NCBI RefSeq assembly: GCF_000424625.1
Contig: NZ_AUKG01000001.1
Span: 124,001-188,000, forward strand
DNA from: Conexibacter woesei Iso977N
GTDB lineage: Bacteria; Actinomycetota; Thermoleophilia; Solirubrobacterales; Solirubrobacteraceae
Length of the DNA stretch: 64,000 bases
Direction: 5' to 3'
This document shows positions 26,886 to 63,236 of this stretch, piece after piece. Under the pieces are notes generated by a model, which made no database searches, was not told the DNA's origin, and worked only from the letters and a program-made list of their open reading frames with translations. How positions within the stretch are numbered: the stretch's first letter is position 1; every line of letters starts with the position of its first letter. The translations under genes were made by a program, and so were the position numbers.

Positions 26886-27242
26886 GTGAGCACCGCCCTT
26901 CCCGTCATCAGCCCCCGCGAGCGCCAGGCCGGCGGCTGCTGTGAGGCGCCGGTCGAGCCGGACCTGACCGCGGCGGCCGCGGTCGAGCTGGCGGCCGTCG
27001 TCAAGGCGCTGGCGGACCCGACGCGGCTGCGGATCGTGGACACGCTGCGCAAGGCGGCGCCGGAGGCGGTGTGCCAGTGCGAGCTGATGCCGTTGTTCGA
27101 CATGTCGCAGCCGGCGTTGTCCAAGCACTTGAAGGTGCTCGTCGGCGCCGGGGTCATCGGGACCGAGCGGCGCGGGCTGTGGGCGTACTACTACATGTTG
27201 CCTGGGGCAACGGAGGAGCTGATCGCGTGGCTGAAGAAGTGA
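26886..27242 (+). CDS. arsR: ArsR-family arsenic-responsive repressor
   Basis: 118-residue winged-helix repressor, first gene of the arsenic operon. It has VVKALADPTRLRIVDTLRKA, a metal helix with AVCQCELMPLF, and the DNA-recognition helix SQPALSKHLKVLVGAGV. An N-terminal GGCCE offers extra thiols; As(III) would be bound by three cysteines and release the DNA. I choose GTG 26886, since the -10 element leaves room only for a start here and the frame further upstream runs through the promoter. The gene overlaps arsM by 16 bases. Confidence 0.88.
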   Translation: MSTALPVISPRERQAGGCCEAPVEPDLTAAAAVELAAVVKALADPTRLRIVDTLRKAAPEAVCQCELMPLFDMSQPALSKHLKVLVGAGVIGTERRGLWAYYYMLPGATEELIAWLKK

Positions 27243-28114
27243 CGTCCACGGCGGAGTGCTGCGCGCCCGCCGCGCAGGCGAGCTGCTGCGGGCCGGAGGA
27301 GAAGGCCGGCGGGTGCTGCGATCCACAGGCGCACGCGGCCGGGTCGTGCGGGTGCTCGGCGGGCAAGAGCGACGACGTGCGCGAGGTGGTGCGCGAGCGC
27401 TACGCCGAGGCGGCGCGCGCCGCCGCGAGCCCGGGCGGCGGGTGCTGCTCGTCGGTCTCGCTGGTCGACGCGTCCGGGACCGAGGTGTTCGGCAACGCGG
27501 TGTACGCGGGTGCGGAGGTCGACGGCGCGGGTGGCGCGCTCGGCGCCTCGCTGGGCTGCGGCGTCCCGACCGCGGTGGCCGACCTGCACGCGGGCGAGAT
27601 CGTCCTGGACCTCGGCGCGGGCGCGGGCGCCGACGTCCTGATCTCCGCCCAGCGCGTCGGGCCGACCGGCAAGGCCTACGGGTTGGACATGACCGACGAG
27701 ATGCTCGACCTCGCGCGCGCCAACGCCGCGCAGGCGGGCGCCGGGAACGTGGAGTTCTTGAAGGGGTACATCGAGGACGTCCCGCTGCCGGACGACGCGG
27801 TCGACGTCGTCATCTCCAACTGCGTCATCAACCTGGCGACCGACAAGTTGGTGGTCTTCCGCGAGGCCGCGCGCGTGCTGCGCGCCGGCGGCCGCTTCGC
27901 GGTCTCCGACGTGATCGCCGACGACGGCATGGACGACGCGACGCGCGCCGACATGGCCGCGTGGACCGGCTGCATCGCGGGCGCGCTGACCCAGCGCGAG
28001 TTCGAGGACGGGCTGCGCGCCGCGGGGTTCGAGGACATCGAGATCCGCGCGACGCACCGCGTCCACGAGCACGCGGCCTCGGCGATCATCCGCGCACGCC
28101 TCGCCGCCGCGTGA
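27227..28114 (+). CDS. arsM: Arsenite S-adenosylmethionine methyltransferase
   Basis: 295-residue enzyme that methylates As(III) with SAM, yielding methyl- and dimethylarsenicals. The SAM site is VLDLGAGAGADVLISAQRVG. The three conserved arsenic-binding cysteines are present: Cys111 (SLGCGVPTA), Cys199 (SNCVINL) and Cys249 (WTGCIAG). An extra cysteine-rich N-terminus (CC, CC, CC and CGC within 45 residues) may capture or deliver arsenite. GGAGGAG eight bases before GTG 27227 fixes the start, inside the end of arsR. Cytoplasmic; acts after ArsC and next to a putative arsenite channel. Confidence 0.92.
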   Translation: MAEEVTSTAECCAPAAQASCCGPEEKAGGCCDPQAHAAGSCGCSAGKSDDVREVVRERYAEAARAAASPGGGCCSSVSLVDASGTEVFGNAVYAGAEVDGAGGALGASLGCGVPTAVADLHAGEIVLDLGAGAGADVLISAQRVGPTGKAYGLDMTDEMLDLARANAAQAGAGNVEFLKGYIEDVPLPDDAVDVVISNCVINLATDKLVVFREAARVLRAGGRFAVSDVIADDGMDDATRADMAAWTGCIAGALTQREFEDGLRAAGFEDIEIRATHRVHEHAASAIIRARLAAA

Positions 28115-28797
28115 CGACCGATCTACGCCGCCGCCTGCTGGCCGAGTTCCTGGGGTCGATGTTCCTGGCCGCGGTCGTCGTCGGGTCCGGGATCGCGGCG
28201 GCGCGGCTGTCGCCGGGCGACACCGGCCTGCAGCTGCTGGAGAACAGCGCCGCGACGGCGGCCGGGCTGTTCACCATCATCTTGATGTTCGGGCCGGTCT
28301 CCGGCGCGCACTTCAACCCGGCGGTGTCGCTGGTCGACGCGGCGCTCGGCGGGGTGACGTGGCGCGCGGCGTTGTCCTACATCCCGGCGCAGGTCGCCGG
28401 CTGCGTCGCGGGCGCCGTGCTCGCCAATGCGATGTTCGCCCAGGCCGCGGCGAGCATCGCCACGACCCACCGCGCGACGCCCGCGCACCTCCTGGCCGAG
28501 GTCGTCGCGACGGCCGGGTTGTTGTTGGTGATCTTCTCGCTGGCCCGGACCGGACGCGCCGCGAGCGCACCCGCGGCGGTCGGCGCCTACATCGGCGCGG
28601 CGTACTGGTTCACGAGCAGCACGAGCTTCGCCAACCCCGCGATCACGGTCGGCCGCATGTTCTCCGACAGCTTCGCCGGGATCGCGCCCGCGTCGGCACC
28701 CGCCTACGTCGTGGCGCAGCTTGCCGGCGGGGCGGTCGGCCTCGGCCTGATCCGGACGCTCTACCCTACGCCCGTGCGCGCGACGGTCGCGGCCTGA
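28111..28797 (+). CDS. aqpS: Aquaglyceroporin-type channel (AqpS-like)
   Basis: 228-residue MIP-family channel with six spans and both pore motifs: HFNPAVS (Asn69) and FANPAITVGR (Asn175, with the selectivity-filter Arg181). Embedded in an ars operon, it resembles Sinorhizobium AqpS, which lets arsenite formed inside the cell flow out down its gradient and replaces ArsB/Acr3 pumps. Starts at GTG 28111, overlapping the arsM stop (GTGA). No ArsB or Acr3 is present in the window. Selectivity for As(III) over glycerol or water is inferred from context. Confidence 0.88.
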   Translation: MTTDLRRRLLAEFLGSMFLAAVVVGSGIAAARLSPGDTGLQLLENSAATAAGLFTIILMFGPVSGAHFNPAVSLVDAALGGVTWRAALSYIPAQVAGCVAGAVLANAMFAQAAASIATTHRATPAHLLAEVVATAGLLLVIFSLARTGRAASAPAAVGAYIGAAYWFTSSTSFANPAITVGRMFSDSFAGIAPASAPAYVVAQLAGGAVGLGLIRTLYPTPVRATVAA

Positions 28798-29216
28798 TGT
28801 CCACCGTCCTGTTCGTCTGCCTCCACAACGCCGGCCGCTCCCAGATGAGCCGCGCGCTGTTCGACCAGGCCGCTCAAGGCAACCACCATGCCTTGAGCGC
28901 CGGCAGCGTCGCCGACCCCGACGGCCACGTGCATCCCGAGGTCGTCGAGGTCATGCGCGAGGTCGGCATCGACCTCACCGGCGTCCGCCCCGTCCGCCTC
29001 ACCCACGAGCTGGCCGAGCAGGCCGACATCATCGTGACGATGGGCTGCGGCGACGCCTGCCCCTACATCCCCGGCAAGCGCTACATCGACTGGGACCTCC
29101 CGGACCCCAAGGGCCGGCCGCTCGAGGCGGTCCGGGCCACCCGCGACGAGATCGCCCGCCGGATCGCGGAGCTCCTCCACGGCGACGCCCGCATACCTGA
29201 TGACCTGTTCAGCTAA
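28797..29216 (+). CDS. arsC: Arsenate reductase, low-molecular-weight phosphatase fold
   Basis: 139-residue reductase of arsenate to arsenite. The catalytic P-loop is CLHNAGR (Cys8 to Arg14), with SQM after it as in mycothiol- or thioredoxin-coupled ArsC. Two more cysteines sit in MGCGDACP (Cys84, Cys88), and DLPDP carries the acid. In actinomycetes this family uses mycothiol and mycoredoxin or thioredoxin. The ATG overlaps the channel gene's stop by one base. It supplies As(III) to ArsM and the channel. Confidence 0.9.
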   Translation: MSTVLFVCLHNAGRSQMSRALFDQAAQGNHHALSAGSVADPDGHVHPEVVEVMREVGIDLTGVRPVRLTHELAEQADIIVTMGCGDACPYIPGKRYIDWDLPDPKGRPLEAVRATRDEIARRIAELLHGDARIPDDLFS

Positions 29217-29225
29217 GCTTTCGTC

Positions 29226-29594
29226 GTGGCCCACGGCACGAACCGACACGAGGCGGACCGGCTTGACCCGGCGTTCGCGCAAGTCGTCGCCGACACGATG
29301 CAGGCGCTCGCGACGCCGAGCCGCGTCCGGATCCTCGGCCGGCTGCAGGCCGGTCCGTGCTCGGTCAACGAGCTGGCCGAGGCGGTGGGGATGGAGGCGT
29401 CCGCCGTGTCGCACCAGCTGCGGCTGCTGCGGCACCTCGGGCTGGTCGTCGGCGAGCGCGACGGTCGCCGGGTCGTCTACGACCTGTACGACGAGCACGT
29501 CGGGGAGCTGCTGACGCAGGCGATCTCCCACGCGGAGCACATGCGCGCCGGGCTCTCGCGCGGCGTACGCGTCGCCGATGCGGCGTCGGCGTGA
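29226..29594 (+). CDS. ArsR/SmtB-family metal sensor (NmtR/CzrA-like)
   Basis: 122-residue winged-helix repressor. ATPSRVRILGRLQAG and the recognition helix EASAVSHQLRLLRHLGLV are clear. There is no CxC in the metal helix; instead the C-terminal helix has DEHVGELLTQAISHAEHM, the histidine/acid alpha-5 site typical of zinc, cobalt or nickel sensors. It precedes and overlaps (GTGA) the His-rich CDF exporter, so it is probably the zinc-type repressor of that exporter. It follows arsC by nine bases and may also be reached by read-through from the ars promoter. Confidence 0.87.
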   Translation: MAHGTNRHEADRLDPAFAQVVADTMQALATPSRVRILGRLQAGPCSVNELAEAVGMEASAVSHQLRLLRHLGLVVGERDGRRVVYDLYDEHVGELLTQAISHAEHMRAGLSRGVRVADAASA

Positions 29595-30244
29595 GCGACC
29601 ACGTGCACGGCCACGCACACGGGCACGGCCACAGCCACGGGCTCGTGGACCCGTCGATCACGCGCTCACGCGACGGCCTCCGGGTCGTGTTGGTGTCCTT
29701 GGTCCTGCTCGGGATCACCGCCGCCGCGCAGGCGGCGATCTACGTCGCGACCGACTCCATCGCTTTGCTCGCCGACCTGATCCACAACGTCGGCGACGCG
29801 TTCACGGCGATCCCGCTGGGCGTCGCGTTCCTGCTGCGCTCCGACCGTGCCGAGCGCGGGGCCGGCCTGGCCGTCGTCGCCACGATCTTCGCCAGCGCCG
29901 TCGTCGCCGCGTTCTTCGCCGTCGACCGCATCATCAACCCGCTGCCGCCCGAGCACCTGCCGGCGCTCGCGCTCGCGGGTGTGGCCGGCGTGATCGGCAA
30001 CGCGATCGCCGCCCGCGTCCGCCTCGCCGGAGGCCGCCGGCTCGACAGCGCCGCGCTCGTCGCCGACGGCAGGCACGCGCAGTCCGACGCGATCGTCTCG
30101 GTCGGCGTCGTCCTCAGCGCGATCGCGGTCGCGCTGGGCGCCCCGATCGCCGATCCGCTCATCGGCCTGGCGATCACGTTGATGATCCTGCGGATCACGT
30201 GGCAGAGCTTCCACACCGTCCGCAACGACGACCGCGGCCGCTGA
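29591..30244 (+). CDS. Cation diffusion facilitator with His-rich N-terminus
   Basis: 217-residue, six-span divalent-cation/proton antiporter. The cytoplasmic N-terminus is DHVHGHAHGHGHSHG, a metal-collecting tail. Both metal-site pairs are canonical: HNVGD in TM2 and HAQSD in TM5 (HxxxD each), pointing to zinc, possibly cobalt or nickel. The usual cytoplasmic C-terminal domain is missing, as in the CDF-like gene at 25773. GTG start 29591 is coupled to the ArsR/SmtB gene. Together with the arsenic genes it forms a metal-defence block. Confidence 0.88.
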   Translation: MSDHVHGHAHGHGHSHGLVDPSITRSRDGLRVVLVSLVLLGITAAAQAAIYVATDSIALLADLIHNVGDAFTAIPLGVAFLLRSDRAERGAGLAVVATIFASAVVAAFFAVDRIINPLPPEHLPALALAGVAGVIGNAIAARVRLAGGRRLDSAALVADGRHAQSDAIVSVGVVLSAIAVALGAPIADPLIGLAITLMILRITWQSFHTVRNDDRGR

Positions 30245-30343: not shown

Positions 30344-30937
30344 CTAGGACAACAACAGCGCAACGAGACCTAGATAGCCCCCGGCCAAGCACCAGACGAC
30401 GGCTTGACGAAACAACGTCAGCCGCGTGGCAAATGTGTTCTCGCCCTCCGCCATCATGCCGGAATACGCTTTCGCCAACTCGAGATCAATTGGTTGTTGC
30501 AGCGAACTCATTACGGCGGCGTGGATGTTTCGGAAGTCAGCCCGCGTGACCATGATCGCCGCCGCTCCGCCGACTCCGTACACGAGCGCCGCGAGCCCGA
30601 GGATCCACAGCACGCTGACCCATAGGTCCGGCCGGTGGGAAGCCAGACTCGCGCCCAGCCCACCAAGCGCCGCCACAGCCACTGTGAACAGCCACTGCGC
30701 CCGTCCGCGAAGAGCTTGTAGATCCGCCTGCTGGCGATCAGACTGGCGACGGCCCTCTTCGATCAACAGCTTGAGTTCATCCTGACTCCACTGGGTGACG
30801 TCCCCCGGTTTGAGTTGGTCAGCCGCGAACGCGGGCAACTTCTTGCCTGGGACGAGCAGACTGAGGAAGTGGATCAGATAGATAAACTGACTACTAGCAA
30901 CCTCGGCCCGCTTAGACCACCCTGGCAACTTAGGCAT
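30344..30937 (-). CDS. Small membrane protein of putative graspetide cluster
   Basis: 197 residues, last gene of a five-gene overlapping minus-strand operon. After a soluble N-terminus comes a charged coiled-coil-like helix (ELKLLIEEGRRQSDRQQADL) leading into two close hydrophobic spans (WLFTVAVAALGGLGASL, SVLWILGLAALVYGVGG), a soluble stretch, and a final span (AVVWCLAGGYLGLVALLLS). The start overlaps the ATP-grasp gene by eight bases. No transporter or protease motif is seen. In a RiPP cluster it could be an immunity, export or membrane-receptor factor; that is inference. GC content is visibly below the surrounding 70%. Confidence 0.75.
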   Translation of the reverse strand: MPKLPGWSKRAEVASSQFIYLIHFLSLLVPGKKLPAFAADQLKPGDVTQWSQDELKLLIEEGRRQSDRQQADLQALRGRAQWLFTVAVAALGGLGASLASHRPDLWVSVLWILGLAALVYGVGGAAAIMVTRADFRNIHAAVMSSLQQPIDLELAKAYSGMMAEGENTFATRLTLFRQAVVWCLAGGYLGLVALLLS

Positions 30938-31856
30938 GCTCTAGATACCTCGCGACCGCGGCGCTGACCTGCGAGCAGACGGGCTCGGGTAGAAAGAGCC
31001 ACTGGCCGGCTGGATTCAAGTCAATGAACAGCCACCGCGTCCCGGTGTCGAGCCAGTCTTGACTGGAATAGCCCAACCCCATGTCATTCGCGATCTTGAG
31101 CGCAAGCGCCTCTAGCTCGGGCTCGGATGTCACACGGAAGCTGGAGTGGGCCGCCTCGCTGCGCCGCCAGTCCAGGGGCAACTCGTCCGCCTCAAGCTCG
31201 CAGCTCCACGCACGGTCGGCGCATGTAACGACGCGCAGGTGACGGCGAGCCACAATGCGCTCCTGCAACAGAAAGGGCGCCCCCGTTAGGGCCGCTAGGC
31301 GTGGGTCATCGCGCTGCATCTCCTGAGCCCATACCACCTTTGCATTCCCATCGAGCTCGACGAAATGCCCGGGGCCGAGTGGCTTGATCACCAATCGGTC
31401 CCCGAGTTGTTCCGGGATCATTCCAGGGCTTCGAACGACCGCTGTACGTGGCGCCGCAATTCCGAGTCGACGCGCGTGGGCTAGTTGCCGCAGCTTGTTC
31501 TCCGCTGCGAGCAACCGGGGGTAAGGCGTCAGCCAATCAACTCCCGGGTGGCTTGCTATCCCTACAACAAGAGATATGAAGGCGGCTCTCTCGGCCGAGG
31601 CTTGCGAGCCGGATACCACTGATCGGCGCCACCCGGGGGCGCTCAGCCGCCGCACCCACCCCCGCGAGTCAGAAAGGCCGACTGACCTAAGCTCGGCCGC
31701 GTCGCCCACTTGAAGAAGCTCGGCGTCGTCGAGGACGTAGTCAACGCCGTCCAGCGTCGATGCGTCCACAACGAGCGGCTCAGCGGATCCAGCAAACGCG
31801 AGCACCGCCTGCACGTGCTCGTCGTCGCGACTGCCGATGATGAGCGAAGAAGTCAG
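30930..31856 (-). CDS. MvdD/RimK-like ATP-grasp ligase, candidate graspetide maturase
   Basis: 308-residue ATP-grasp enzyme. The N-terminus SSLIIGSRDDEHVQAVLAF is the pre-ATP-grasp fold of graspetide ligases. Then come AAENKLRQLAHARRLGIAAP, RLVIKPLGPGHF (ATP lysine), QERIVARRHLRVV, LPLDWRR, and the metal-binding end WLFIDLNPAGQWLFLP. Such enzymes join Asp/Glu side chains to Thr/Ser/Lys of a precursor as omega-esters or amides. No ATG, GTG or TTG exists in frame early enough; CTG 31856 overlaps the upstream peptide's stop as CTGA and restores the conserved N-terminus. The first conventional start (GTG 31814) would delete 14 conserved residues. Directly preceded by three paralogous short peptides. 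Confidence 0.85.
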   Translation of the reverse strand: MTSSLIIGSRDDEHVQAVLAFAGSAEPLVVDASTLDGVDYVLDDAELLQVGDAAELRSVGLSDSRGWVRRLSAPGWRRSVVSGSQASAERAAFISLVVGIASHPGVDWLTPYPRLLAAENKLRQLAHARRLGIAAPRTAVVRSPGMIPEQLGDRLVIKPLGPGHFVELDGNAKVVWAQEMQRDDPRLAALTGAPFLLQERIVARRHLRVVTCADRAWSCELEADELPLDWRRSEAAHSSFRVTSEPELEALALKIANDMGLGYSSQDWLDTGTRWLFIDLNPAGQWLFLPEPVCSQVSAAVARYLEHA

Positions 31857-32020
31857 AGTTCGAGGATGTCGTCGTCGGGAACATCCTCAGTGTCGTCGTC
31901 GATGGTTTCCTTGGTCGCAGTGATGCGAGTCTCGCCGACCGTCGCCGAAACGGGCGCAGGCTCACCCAGAACGCGATAGAGCGAGTCCTCAATCACCAGC
32001 GACTCCGGCGAGTTATTCAT
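31853..32020 (-). CDS. Candidate graspetide precursor peptide 1
   Basis: 55 residues, beginning MNNSPESLVIEDSLYRVLGE. The middle block has LYRVLGEPAP, then GETRITATKETIDDDTED and an acidic end VPDDDILEL. The Thr/Lys residues followed by an Asp/Glu cluster are what an ATP-grasp ligase would link. It shares the EPxP-(N)-GETxxTxxxET(I/V)D(D/E) plan with two upstream peptides. Its TGA overlaps the CTG start of the ligase by four bases, and its ATG lies inside the end of peptide 2 (eight-base overlap). Too short for standard gene finding; conservation within the operon is the evidence that it is real. Confidence 0.75.
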   Translation of the reverse strand: MNNSPESLVIEDSLYRVLGEPAPVSATVGETRITATKETIDDDTEDVPDDDILEL

Positions 32021-32123
32021 GATGATCGCCAAACTCCTCGTCGATGGTTTCGATCGTCTTCGTCATGCGAGTCTCCCCCAAGGCAAGGGCGTCAGGAGCA
32101 GGCACGGCAAGCAACTCATACAT
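32013..32123 (-). CDS. Candidate graspetide precursor peptide 2
   Basis: 36 residues: MYELLAVPAPDALALGETRM, then TKTIETIDEEFGDHHE. It is the shortest paralogue: the leader is cut down to the YELLAVPAP block, and the GETRMTKTIETIDEE block aligns gap-free with peptide 1 (GETRITATKETIDDD). The ending has two histidines. Overlaps peptide 3 and peptide 1 by eight bases each. Candidate linkages would be between its Thr residues (and Lys22) and Glu/Asp25-32. Confidence 0.7.
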   Translation of the reverse strand: MYELLAVPAPDALALGETRMTKTIETIDEEFGDHHE

Positions 32124-32304
32124 TGAGCTCACCTGAACCGGCGATGATGTCGACGTCGAACTCAACAGCTTCAGCGTCATTGTCCACGGTCTCCTTCTGA
32201 CGAGTGTGGGTCGTCTCGCCAGCGCGGCCGTTCGCCGGCACCGGCTCCGATAGAACCCCGTAGAGACTGACGAGGCAGCCTTCAGCAGTCACAGAGCCGA
32301 CCAT
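32116..32304 (-). CDS. Candidate graspetide precursor peptide 3
   Basis: 62 residues, first gene of the operon. After MVGSVTAEGCLV comes SLYGVLSEPVPANGRAGETT, aligned with peptide 1's SLYRVLGEPAP, then HTRQKETVDNDAEAVEFDVD and a longer tail IIAGSGELNV. The core KETVDND has one Asn where peptides 1 and 2 have Asp or Glu, so the ring pattern may differ. A single cysteine near the N-terminus is not shared. No Shine-Dalgarno precedes ATG 32304; a plausible -10 element eight bases upstream suggests a leaderless start. Confidence 0.7.
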   Translation of the reverse strand: MVGSVTAEGCLVSLYGVLSEPVPANGRAGETTHTRQKETVDNDAEAVEFDVDIIAGSGELNV

Positions 32305-32744: not shown

Positions 32745-32751
32745 GAAAGGA

Positions 32752-32825
<74 letters not shown>

Positions 32826-32890
32826 GAGTCGATCGGGACGCACATTATGGCAGCAGTTGGGTCGGCGTGGAGTGACGGGGTTCGCGCCTG

Positions 32891-61416: not shown

Positions 61417-63236
61417 CAGGCCGCTTCGATCGACAGCGAGGACTGCCCGTCCGGCGCCGCGGGCGGCGGCGCGTCCGGTCCCGGCTTCAGCACCGGGCGC
61501 GGGCCCTCGGTCTTGTCGAGCCGCCCGTCGTCGACCATCGCGTCGATCTTCGACAGCACGGTCGACGACGTCATGTGCGCGTAGGTCGCGTACTCCGGTA
61601 GCCCGTCCCAGCCGTTGCGCAGCAGCGCCTTCGCCTGACCGCCACGCAGCACCTCGGCGACGCGCGTCCGCCCGATCGACGGCCGCGCCGCGCGCACCAC
61701 CGACAGGATCGCCGCCTCGATCGTCTCGTGCTTCGCGGTCCCCGCGTTGGCGTGCGACAGCGCGCGCGACGGCGACGCGGGCACCAGCGACGGGTCGCAC
61801 ACGTCGCAGCACGGCACCCCGGGATCGGTCGTCGGCGCTGCCGGATCGCCGAAGTGCCGGAGCACCCGTGCGCGGCGGCAGCCGTCGTCCTCGACGAACG
61901 ACCACACCGACCGGTACTGCTTCCAGCGCGCCCGCTGACCCTCAGCCGCGCTCGACCGCGCCAGCGCCTGCGCGCGCCCGTCGTACTGGCCGACGACGCG
62001 CCCGCGCACACGGTCCATCGGCGACGGCGCCGGCTGGATCACGCCCGCCCGCGCAAGGTGCCCGACGATCGCCCGGACCCGCTCGGCCTCGTCGTCCAGG
62101 TACGACAGCGCGACGTCGAAGCGCCCGTCGACCGACGCGCCGAGCAGCCGCCCGGCGACCTGATCCAGGATCCCCTCGCTCACCTCGGAGCGGTTGATGA
62201 AGAACACGTGCAGCGACTTGTCGCGCTTCTCGGCGAACAGCAGCGCGCGCGCCGGGGCGCCGTCGCGGCCACCGCGGCCGGCCTCCTGGTAGTAGGCCTC
62301 GACCGACGGCGGCACGACCTCGTGCGCGACCGTCCGGACGTCGGACTTGTCGACGCCCATCCCGAACGCGTTGGTCGCGACCACGACATCGACCCGGCCG
62401 TCCATGAACCGCCGCTGGACCGTCGCGCGCTCGCCGCGCGGCAGGCCCGCGTGGTAGGCGACGACCTCGATGCCGAGGTCGACGCCGAGCCGCTCGGCCA
62501 GCGCGTCGCACGCCTTGCGCGTGCCCGCGTAGACGATCGCCGGCCGCGCCGCCGGATCGCGCAGCGCCTCCGCGATCCGCGCGTGCTTGTCGGCCGTCGT
62601 CGCGCACGGGACCACGGCGAACGACAGGTTCGGCCGGTCGAAGCCCGTCGTGACGATCGCCGGCTCCTGCAGCCCCAGCCGCGCCACGATGTCGCGCGCG
62701 ACCTCCGGCGTCGCCGTCGCCGTCGAGGCCACCAGGGCACGAGCGCCCAGCCACCGCGCCGCGTCCGCCAGCCGGAAGTAGTCCGGGCGGAAGTCGTGCC
62801 CCCACTGCGACACGCAGTGCGCCTCGTCGACCACGAACAGCCCGATCGGGACGTTGCGGATCGCCTCCAGGAACCCGGGCGACGAGAACCGCTCCGGCGC
62901 CACGTACAGCAGCTTCAGCGCACCCGACCGCGCGCGCTCCAGCACCGCCGCGTTGGTGGCCATGTCCTGCTGGGCGTTGATGACGCCCGCCGCGCCCGGG
63001 ACGCGGCGCTCCAGCGCCTCGACCTGGTCCTGCATCAGCGAGACCAGCGGCGAGACCACGATCGTCAGGTCCTCGCGCACCAGCGCGGGCAGCTGGTAGC
63101 AGAGCGACTTGCCCGCGCCCGTCGGCATGACCACGAGCGTGTCGCGCCCGTTCACCGCAGCGGTGACCGCGGCCTCCTGGCCGGGGCGGAAGTCGGCGAA
63201 GCCGAAGTGGTCGGTGAGGGCGGCGCGCAGATCCAT
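61416..63236 (-). CDS. recQ: RecQ-family ATP-dependent DNA helicase
   Basis: 606-residue 3'-5' helicase. Motif 0 FGFADFRPGQEAAV, motif I MPTGAGKSLCYQLPAL, motif II VVDEAHCVSQWGHDFRPDY, motif VI YYQEAGRGGRDG are all intact. A zinc-binding region follows with CRRARVLRHFGD and CCDVCDP. No HRDC domain is recognisable; the C-terminus is a winged-helix-like region (AAILSVVRAARPSIGRTRVA) and a low-complexity end. It works in recombination and replication-fork repair. Operon with purN (one-base overlap). Confidence 0.92.
   Translation of the reverse strand: MDLRAALTDHFGFADFRPGQEAAVTAAVNGRDTLVVMPTGAGKSLCYQLPALVREDLTIVVSPLVSLMQDQVEALERRVPGAAGVINAQQDMATNAAVLERARSGALKLLYVAPERFSSPGFLEAIRNVPIGLFVVDEAHCVSQWGHDFRPDYFRLADAARWLGARALVASTATATPEVARDIVARLGLQEPAIVTTGFDRPNLSFAVVPCATTADKHARIAEALRDPAARPAIVYAGTRKACDALAERLGVDLGIEVVAYHAGLPRGERATVQRRFMDGRVDVVVATNAFGMGVDKSDVRTVAHEVVPPSVEAYYQEAGRGGRDGAPARALLFAEKRDKSLHVFFINRSEVSEGILDQVAGRLLGASVDGRFDVALSYLDDEAERVRAIVGHLARAGVIQPAPSPMDRVRGRVVGQYDGRAQALARSSAAEGQRARWKQYRSVWSFVEDDGCRRARVLRHFGDPAAPTTDPGVPCCDVCDPSLVPASPSRALSHANAGTAKHETIEAAILSVVRAARPSIGRTRVAEVLRGGQAKALLRNGWDGLPEYATYAHMTSSTVLSKIDAMVDDGRLDKTEGPRPVLKPGPDAPPPAAPDGQSSLSIEAA

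Follow-up and report, generated by a model that had tools for sequence, protein, structure and literature searches.

A putative graspetide biosynthesis operon with three precursor peptides and an overlapping membrane protein gene in Conexibacter woesei

The 64,000-nucleotide stretch of Conexibacter woesei Iso977N analysed here (the window) lies on contig C1 of a genome of 5.7 Mb, designated G000. The minus strand of the window carries, from 32304 to 30344, five overlapping genes: three for short peptides, one for an ATP-grasp ligase and one for a membrane protein. These genes very probably constitute a compact graspetide biosynthesis operon: at the level of sequence the ligase belongs to the graspetide macrocyclase family, the three peptides resemble its substrates and the membrane protein gene overlaps that of the ligase. 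A preliminary description of this DNA had placed peptides of 62, 36 and 55 residues directly ahead of the ATP-grasp gene, with overlaps of 4-8 bases between successive genes and a small membrane protein at the end, and this layout was recovered in full. The overlaps read from the DNA are 8 bases between peptides 1 and 2, 8 between peptides 2 and 3, 4 (CTGA) between peptide 3 and the ligase and 8 between the ligase and the membrane protein, which moreover proved to be part of a conserved module.

Leader and core of the precursor peptides

In each of the window peptides the leader motif is constant and is followed, always at the same distance, by a core that is acidic and rich in threonine. A motif covering leader and core was present in 3 of the 204 window open reading frames (ORFs) of 30-100 residues, these being the three peptides, and was absent from 40,000 shuffled ORFs and from 60,000 shuffles of the three peptides. 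As the motif was derived from the window peptides themselves, recurrence of the peptide block beside the ligase at other loci is the stronger evidence. Such peptides accompany the ligase at all nine loci found (G000, G013, G063, Streptomyces NBC_00015, G728, G685, G1135, G1042 and L091), and thus the peptide block is indeed conserved in relatives. At eight loci the peptides are upstream of the ligase and intact; at G685 the precursor is downstream of the membrane protein gene and split. There are three peptides each in G000 and G013, two each in G063, G1042 and L091 and one each in NBC_00015, G728, G1135 and G685 (the last in two frames).

All 15 intact peptides of the nine loci have the leader motif [LM][YF]xx[LM] and an E[TS]xD core with at least two Thr or Ser residues within the 8 residues ahead of it. 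Leader motif and core Glu lie 24 residues apart in every one of the eight peptides from G000, G013 and G063 and 23-29 residues apart across the 15; the peptides of these three genomes also have acidic C-termini. The motif TxxTxxxExxDxD, which we take to be the thuringinin core, is matched exactly by six peptides (two of the three in each of G000 and G013, and both in G063), and the looser pattern [TS]xx[TS]xxxE[TS]xD fits 11 of the 15 cores. The earlier statement that the core could not be matched to a known graspetide group therefore needs some correction, as six of the 15 peptides fit this presumed thuringinin motif. The statement that the leader differs from PFFARFL was borne out, since no leader of that type was seen by eye in any of the 15.

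The peptides of G000 and G013 were compared pairwise for nonsynonymous (dN) and synonymous (dS) divergence, which gave dN/dS pairs of 0.58/1.26, 0.57/1.36 and 0.35/1.99; dN is below dS in all three, with dS near saturation. Peptides 1 and 3 of the two genomes are reciprocal best matches, and hence at least two of the three peptide types seem older than the G000/G013 split. A precursor profile, built with these peptides, recovered the three peptides from their own genome plus two matches at E values (E) of 0.18 and 0.53. In two genomes of the same genus that lack the ligase the profile found nothing (G005) or weak matches at 0.056 and 0.73 inside long frames (G113). The three window peptides had no match in Pfam or NCBIfam up to E 1.

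The ligase groups with graspetide macrocyclases

Among NCBIfam models the window ligase scored highest with TIGR04187 (96.2 bits, 2.1e-27), followed by MvdC (64 bits, 1.8e-17) and MvdD (56 bits, 4.5e-15), with the RimK family at 12 bits against a cut-off of 143.4; Pfam RimK gave 11.2 bits against a cut-off of 21. A PDB search with a three-sequence ligase profile returned the macrocyclases AMdnB, MdnB, MdnC, CdnC, 9bou (PruB) and PsnB at 7.7e-21 to 2.6e-6, and after these came three matches at chance level, with RimK not among them. An AlphaFold model of the ligase had a predicted template-modelling score of 0.72, and Foldseek searches with this model placed MdnC, CdnC, AMdnB, PruB, PsnB and MdnB ahead of RimK, which appeared from rank 29. 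On model scores and the order of the structure matches we rejected an assignment to RimK or another non-peptide ATP-grasp enzyme, which would have spoken against the preliminary description. Its graspetide reading is supported at the sequence level by the ligase models together with the recurrent peptide block.

In a phylogenetic tree the nine module ligases came together as a single clade (100/100). A long stem sets this clade off from tgmB, MvdC, MvdD and all other ligases in the tree. The comparison sample was 27 other ligase loci (L010-L024 and L037-L048), of which 22 yielded a row; a later tree dropped 5 near-copies and added L091-L094. The window ligase frame has no ATG, GTG or TTG codon ahead of the conserved N-terminus and the CTG at 31856 is a fitting start. 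The start codon at the same point is CTG in G063 (L005 near 2408) and ATG in G013.

Distribution of the module

The genome draws searched overlap in part and the first pass often scored only 5-16 candidates per genome, so the counts given here are lower bounds. In the window's family (146 genomes) at least three genomes have a ligase scoring above 540 bits, and the same genomes (at least three of the 146) have the membrane protein at above 340 bits; five further genomes have ligase matches of 60-80 bits, apparently other graspetide-type ligases. At least three of the 232 genomes of the window's order pass 1e-25. The family of G573 (345 genomes) has at least 14 that pass 1e-25 and, among the matches listed, G728 and G685 alone exceed 300 bits, with no other above 106. 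In the class drawn round G573 (345 genomes) at least three pass 1e-35, one being the already known G728, and in the phylum draw (396 genomes) at least 10 pass 1e-15, G000 and G013 alone exceeding 75 bits among the matches listed. Two further loci came from a Streptomyces NBC_00015 plasmid record and from an IMG/VR contig (L091). G013 (three peptides) and G063 (two peptides) keep the operon order, and their ligases are 57% and 49% identical to that of the window. The small gene set is probably mobile.

A first scan of viral contigs with the single ligase protein gave no match. In the phage collection the sole match was a distant ATP-grasp gene of Leptospira phage KF114876, and the viral contigs L092-L096 contain more distant graspetide-like or RimK-like ATP-grasp genes.

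The membrane partner and maturation

At six of the nine loci (G000, G013, G063, G685, G1042 and, with weak similarity, L091) the gene after the ligase encodes this type of membrane protein. At NBC_00015 and G728 an EcsC-like gene lies upstream, assigned by PADLOC at both loci (PDC-S29) and by Pfam at NBC_00015 (EcsC), and at G1135 a 123-residue gene that matches no family lies downstream. The window membrane protein matched nothing in NCBIfam, PADLOC or PHROGs and had only a weak Pfam match to TM1506 at E 0.3; its relatives in G685 and G1042 had no Pfam match and that of L091 a sub-threshold match to DUF2157. A PDB sequence search with the protein stayed at chance level, the plasmid collection gave no match and the AlphaFold model had a mean predicted local distance difference test score (pLDDT) of 55. 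A weak relative of the protein (8e-4) is encoded in G145 (L028), beside a gene read as a nucleoid-associated protein.

Of the 15 peptides, 2 have a GG, GA or GS doublet in the stretch that separates leader motif and core, and 13 have none there. A C39 peptidase was not found at E 0.001 in five of the seven module genomes searched whole, and the other two have a match away from the module; the usual double-glycine route is therefore unlikely.

Defence genes beside the module

Other actinobacteria and a virus-like contig carry related sets, and anti-phage genes stand beside several of these. Defence genes adjoin four of the nine modules: IetAS (G685, in the same operon), ThsA (L091), a PifA-like gene (G013) and an ApeA-like gene (G1042). 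The G685 order is ietA, ietS, ligase, membrane protein and split precursor, with ietS and the ligase overlapping by GTGA; two AbiTii-like frames precede this series. In L091 the module is flanked on one side by a serine recombinase and on the other by a HIT-domain gene followed by the ThsA macro gene (5.8e-131); this module is likely cargo of a prophage or integrative element. The G013 neighbour is a PifA-like KAP NTPase and that of G1042 an ApeA-type gene (ApeA_NTD1), for which PADLOC gives just PDC-S58 at 1e-5. Less clear are a NACHT-type neighbour of NBC_00015, slightly under the Pfam cut-off, and, at G728, a TIR gene some 6 kb away from the ligase. No recognised defence gene was seen among the scanned neighbours of G000, G063 and G1135. 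In the window the methyltransferase-type mad2 was the sole defence-library match among the ORFs scanned, and the G063 module lies beside conjugation-type genes.

PADLOC matches round the modules were compared with those round nine control graspetide ligases, all of one family (Streptomyces-like). The module set, which includes the module genes, comprised 62 ORFs: a crude GC-frame caller supplied 55, all within 5 kb of one of seven ligases, and seven were picked by hand in the window; the control set was 77 of 83 ORFs, with six left out. A tenth control locus (L081), with its ligase at a contig end, was not used, and L091, found later, stands outside the comparison. The module set matched 33 PADLOC families (25 of the 33 listed) and the control set five, the matches at the control loci being limited to capH, mad2, PDC-S07, CARF-type and RmrA. 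These counts include generic matches (mad2, capH and CARF-type); two of the control matches are to PDC-S07, a candidate defence family, and in the module set the matches to PDC-S40, to Csa3 and of TIR type are not tied to a locus. The contrast is suggestive and is not a statistic. In the literature searched, graspetide was not found together with anti-phage, nor ATP-grasp with anti-phage and RiPP (ribosomally synthesized and post-translationally modified peptide), and the main text of PMC8939145 contains no word beginning defense, phage or immunity.

Genomic setting of the operon

The operon (Table 1) lies between a tRNA-Asp gene and a plus-strand gene read as a cation-efflux gene. Its G+C content is 62.2%, against 72.5% for the window, which is consistent with an origin of the operon elsewhere. 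Integration at the tRNA-Asp gene is not supported, since no stretch of the tRNA of 16 bases or more is repeated in the window, the sole match being of 15 bases at 62697. The genes at 27071-30244 of the window were read by eye as an arsenic methyltransferase, an aquaporin, an arsenate reductase, an ArsR regulator and a cation efflux protein.

Table 1 Features of the operon and its flank, in window coordinates
Feature	Coordinates	Strand	Remarks
Precursor peptide 1 (62 aa)	32116..32304	-	Leader SLYGVL, core GETTHTRQKETVDND; profile match 78.5 bits in own genome (profile includes peptide 1)
Precursor peptide 2 (36 aa, from overlapping ATG)	32013..32123	-	Leader MYELL, core GETRMTKTIETIDEE; profile match 66.9 bits
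Precursor peptide 3 (55 aa)	31853..32020	-	Leader SLYRVL, core GETRITATKETIDDD; profile match 78.2 bits
ATP-grasp graspetide-type ligase	30930..31856	-	Probable CTG start at 31856, overlapping the peptide 3 stop
Membrane protein, 197 aa	30344..30937	-	Long predicted helices ~52-100, 105-144, 152-196; membrane nature read from hydrophobic stretches
tRNA-Asp (GTC)	32749..32826	-	Flank, upstream of operon; outside module

Discussion

A graspetide operon of this kind could function as follows. The ligase would bind each leader at its L[YF]xx[LM] segment and use ATP to phosphorylate the side chains of Glu or Asp residues in the E[TS]xD region; the upstream Thr (or Ser) hydroxyls would then attack to give about two omega-ester rings per peptide, with loss of 18 Da for each. 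One enzyme acting on three peptides would give three related products, and a double-glycine peptidase of the C39 type would probably play no part in maturation. The most likely role of the membrane protein is to deal with the product at the membrane, in export, in immunity or as an effector.

Several observations weigh against this interpretation. The ligase falls under every curated cut-off (96 of 350 bits for TIGR04187) and is only 15-22% identical to the solved enzymes listed above; its model has a mean pLDDT of 69.6, and the Foldseek template-modelling scores are about 0.5 with RimK close behind. Nine of the 15 cores are not exact fits of TxxTxxxExxDxD and four lie outside even the looser pattern. 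Peptide 2 of G000 and that of G013 are not reciprocal best matches. The G685 precursor is broken in the assembly, with leader and core in two frames (L051:6240-6446) downstream of the membrane gene, which is a frameshift either in the gene or in the assembly; its core half fits [TS]xx[TS]xxxE[TS]xD but in a different frame from the leader. Finally, the membrane protein of L091 is only 22% identical to that of the window, and searches of the G728 and G1135 genomes in full and of the NBC_00015 plasmid record found no match to the protein.

The most serious alternative concerns solely the role of the product and is compatible with a graspetide operon: an ordinary secreted graspetide, for which the membrane protein would be the exporter and the defence neighbours coincidental. 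We rate this at a little under an even chance. Excerpts of PMC8939145 suggest transport for an uncharacterized membrane family at thuringinin loci, and the window locus itself has no clear defence gene (the mad2 match alone among the ORFs scanned). However, the membrane protein and its relatives match no transporter family, and defence genes adjoin four of nine modules whereas the nine control loci have only the five kinds of match named above. The opposite proposal, which we consider unlikely though worth stating, is that the clade is a mobile intracellular conflict module whose ring-closed peptides are never exported and act with the membrane (or EcsC-like) protein in anti-phage immunity.

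It is very improbable that the ATP-grasp enzyme instead adds an amino acid or other group to the peptides, as do PGM1 of pheganomycin or RimK, and forms no side-chain rings. RimK shares the fold and follows the graspetide ligases closely in Foldseek, and the acidic C-termini of the G000, G013 and G063 peptides would suit such an enzyme, but the RimK model scores 12 bits against 96, 64 and 56 for the macrocyclase models, the PDB sequence search rose above chance level for macrocyclase ligases only, and the conserved Thr/Ser residues followed by Glu/Asp, as in graspetides, keep a near-constant spacing. Least credible of all is the view that the small frames encode regulators or peptides of an antitoxin-like kind and that the ligase has another substrate. 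In its favour, the peptides are short and mostly lack a GG, GA or GS doublet; against it, they stand with the ligase at all nine loci (one broken), have the leader-core architecture typical of RiPP precursors and, for the three of the window, lack any Pfam or NCBIfam match up to E 1.

The graspetide operon would add a ligase clade that stands well apart and has a leader code of its own, a near-invariant leader-core distance and several separate substrates per enzyme, and would offer a clean system for learning how one graspetide ligase reads differing cores. To our knowledge, the natural roles of graspetides are mostly unknown. If the defence link is true, graspetides would be connected with bacterial immunity, and the IetAS-type operon allows a direct test by single-gene deletion.

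Comparison with known graspetide systems

The microviridin systems (MvdC/MvdD, MdnB/MdnC) share with the module the ATP-grasp macrocyclase family and a precursor of leader plus core. The microviridin core is TxKxPSD, and this Lys-x-Pro-Ser-Asp core is absent by eye from the 15 module peptides. Moreover, the window genome has one ligase match, at E 1e-20 with the protein and 1e-15 with the profile, whereas the microviridin group uses two ligases, and the module clade is separate from Nostoc MvdC/MvdD. The module peptides also lack the PFFARFL-type leader, a microviridin feature according to excerpts of PMC8939145. Membership in the microviridin group is thus ruled out by the single ligase, the leader, the core and the separate clade.

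The tgmA/tgmB/tgmC systems (TIGR04187; actinobacterial graspetides such as fuscimiditide) provide the nearest curated ligase model and come from the same phylum. However, the module ligase scores far under the TIGR04187 cut-off and its clade is apart from tgmB of Streptomyces NBC_00080, a locus that has the methyltransferase tgmC; score and clade together rule out membership. The leader also differs from the RPFG of ThfA (excerpts of PMC13003496). Rosaritide, a partner-dependent graspetide, resembles the module in having an extra protein that co-occurs beside the ligase, but in excerpts of PMC13097080 that partner is PpiC-like, whereas the partner in the module is a membrane protein without a family match.

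A likeness to thuringinin of Bacillus would lie in the presumed core motif, exact in six of the 15 module peptides. In excerpts of PMC8939145, which covers 174 families and describes two branches of ligases that go with peptidases as well as graspetide loci with uncharacterized membrane proteins, thuringinin loci are accompanied by an uncharacterized membrane protein family, a possible counterpart of the membrane protein of the module. Thuringinin is trivalent, with three cross-linked repeats in one peptide (excerpts of PMC12291112), whereas in the module, by eye in the 15 peptides, each precursor has a single core and a locus has up to three precursors. Excerpts of PMC13097080 give 24 earlier and 19 new graspetide groups. 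Against the groups compared here the operon is distinct in its leader, in the clade of its ligase and in its partner, and its context hints at a role in bacterial conflict.
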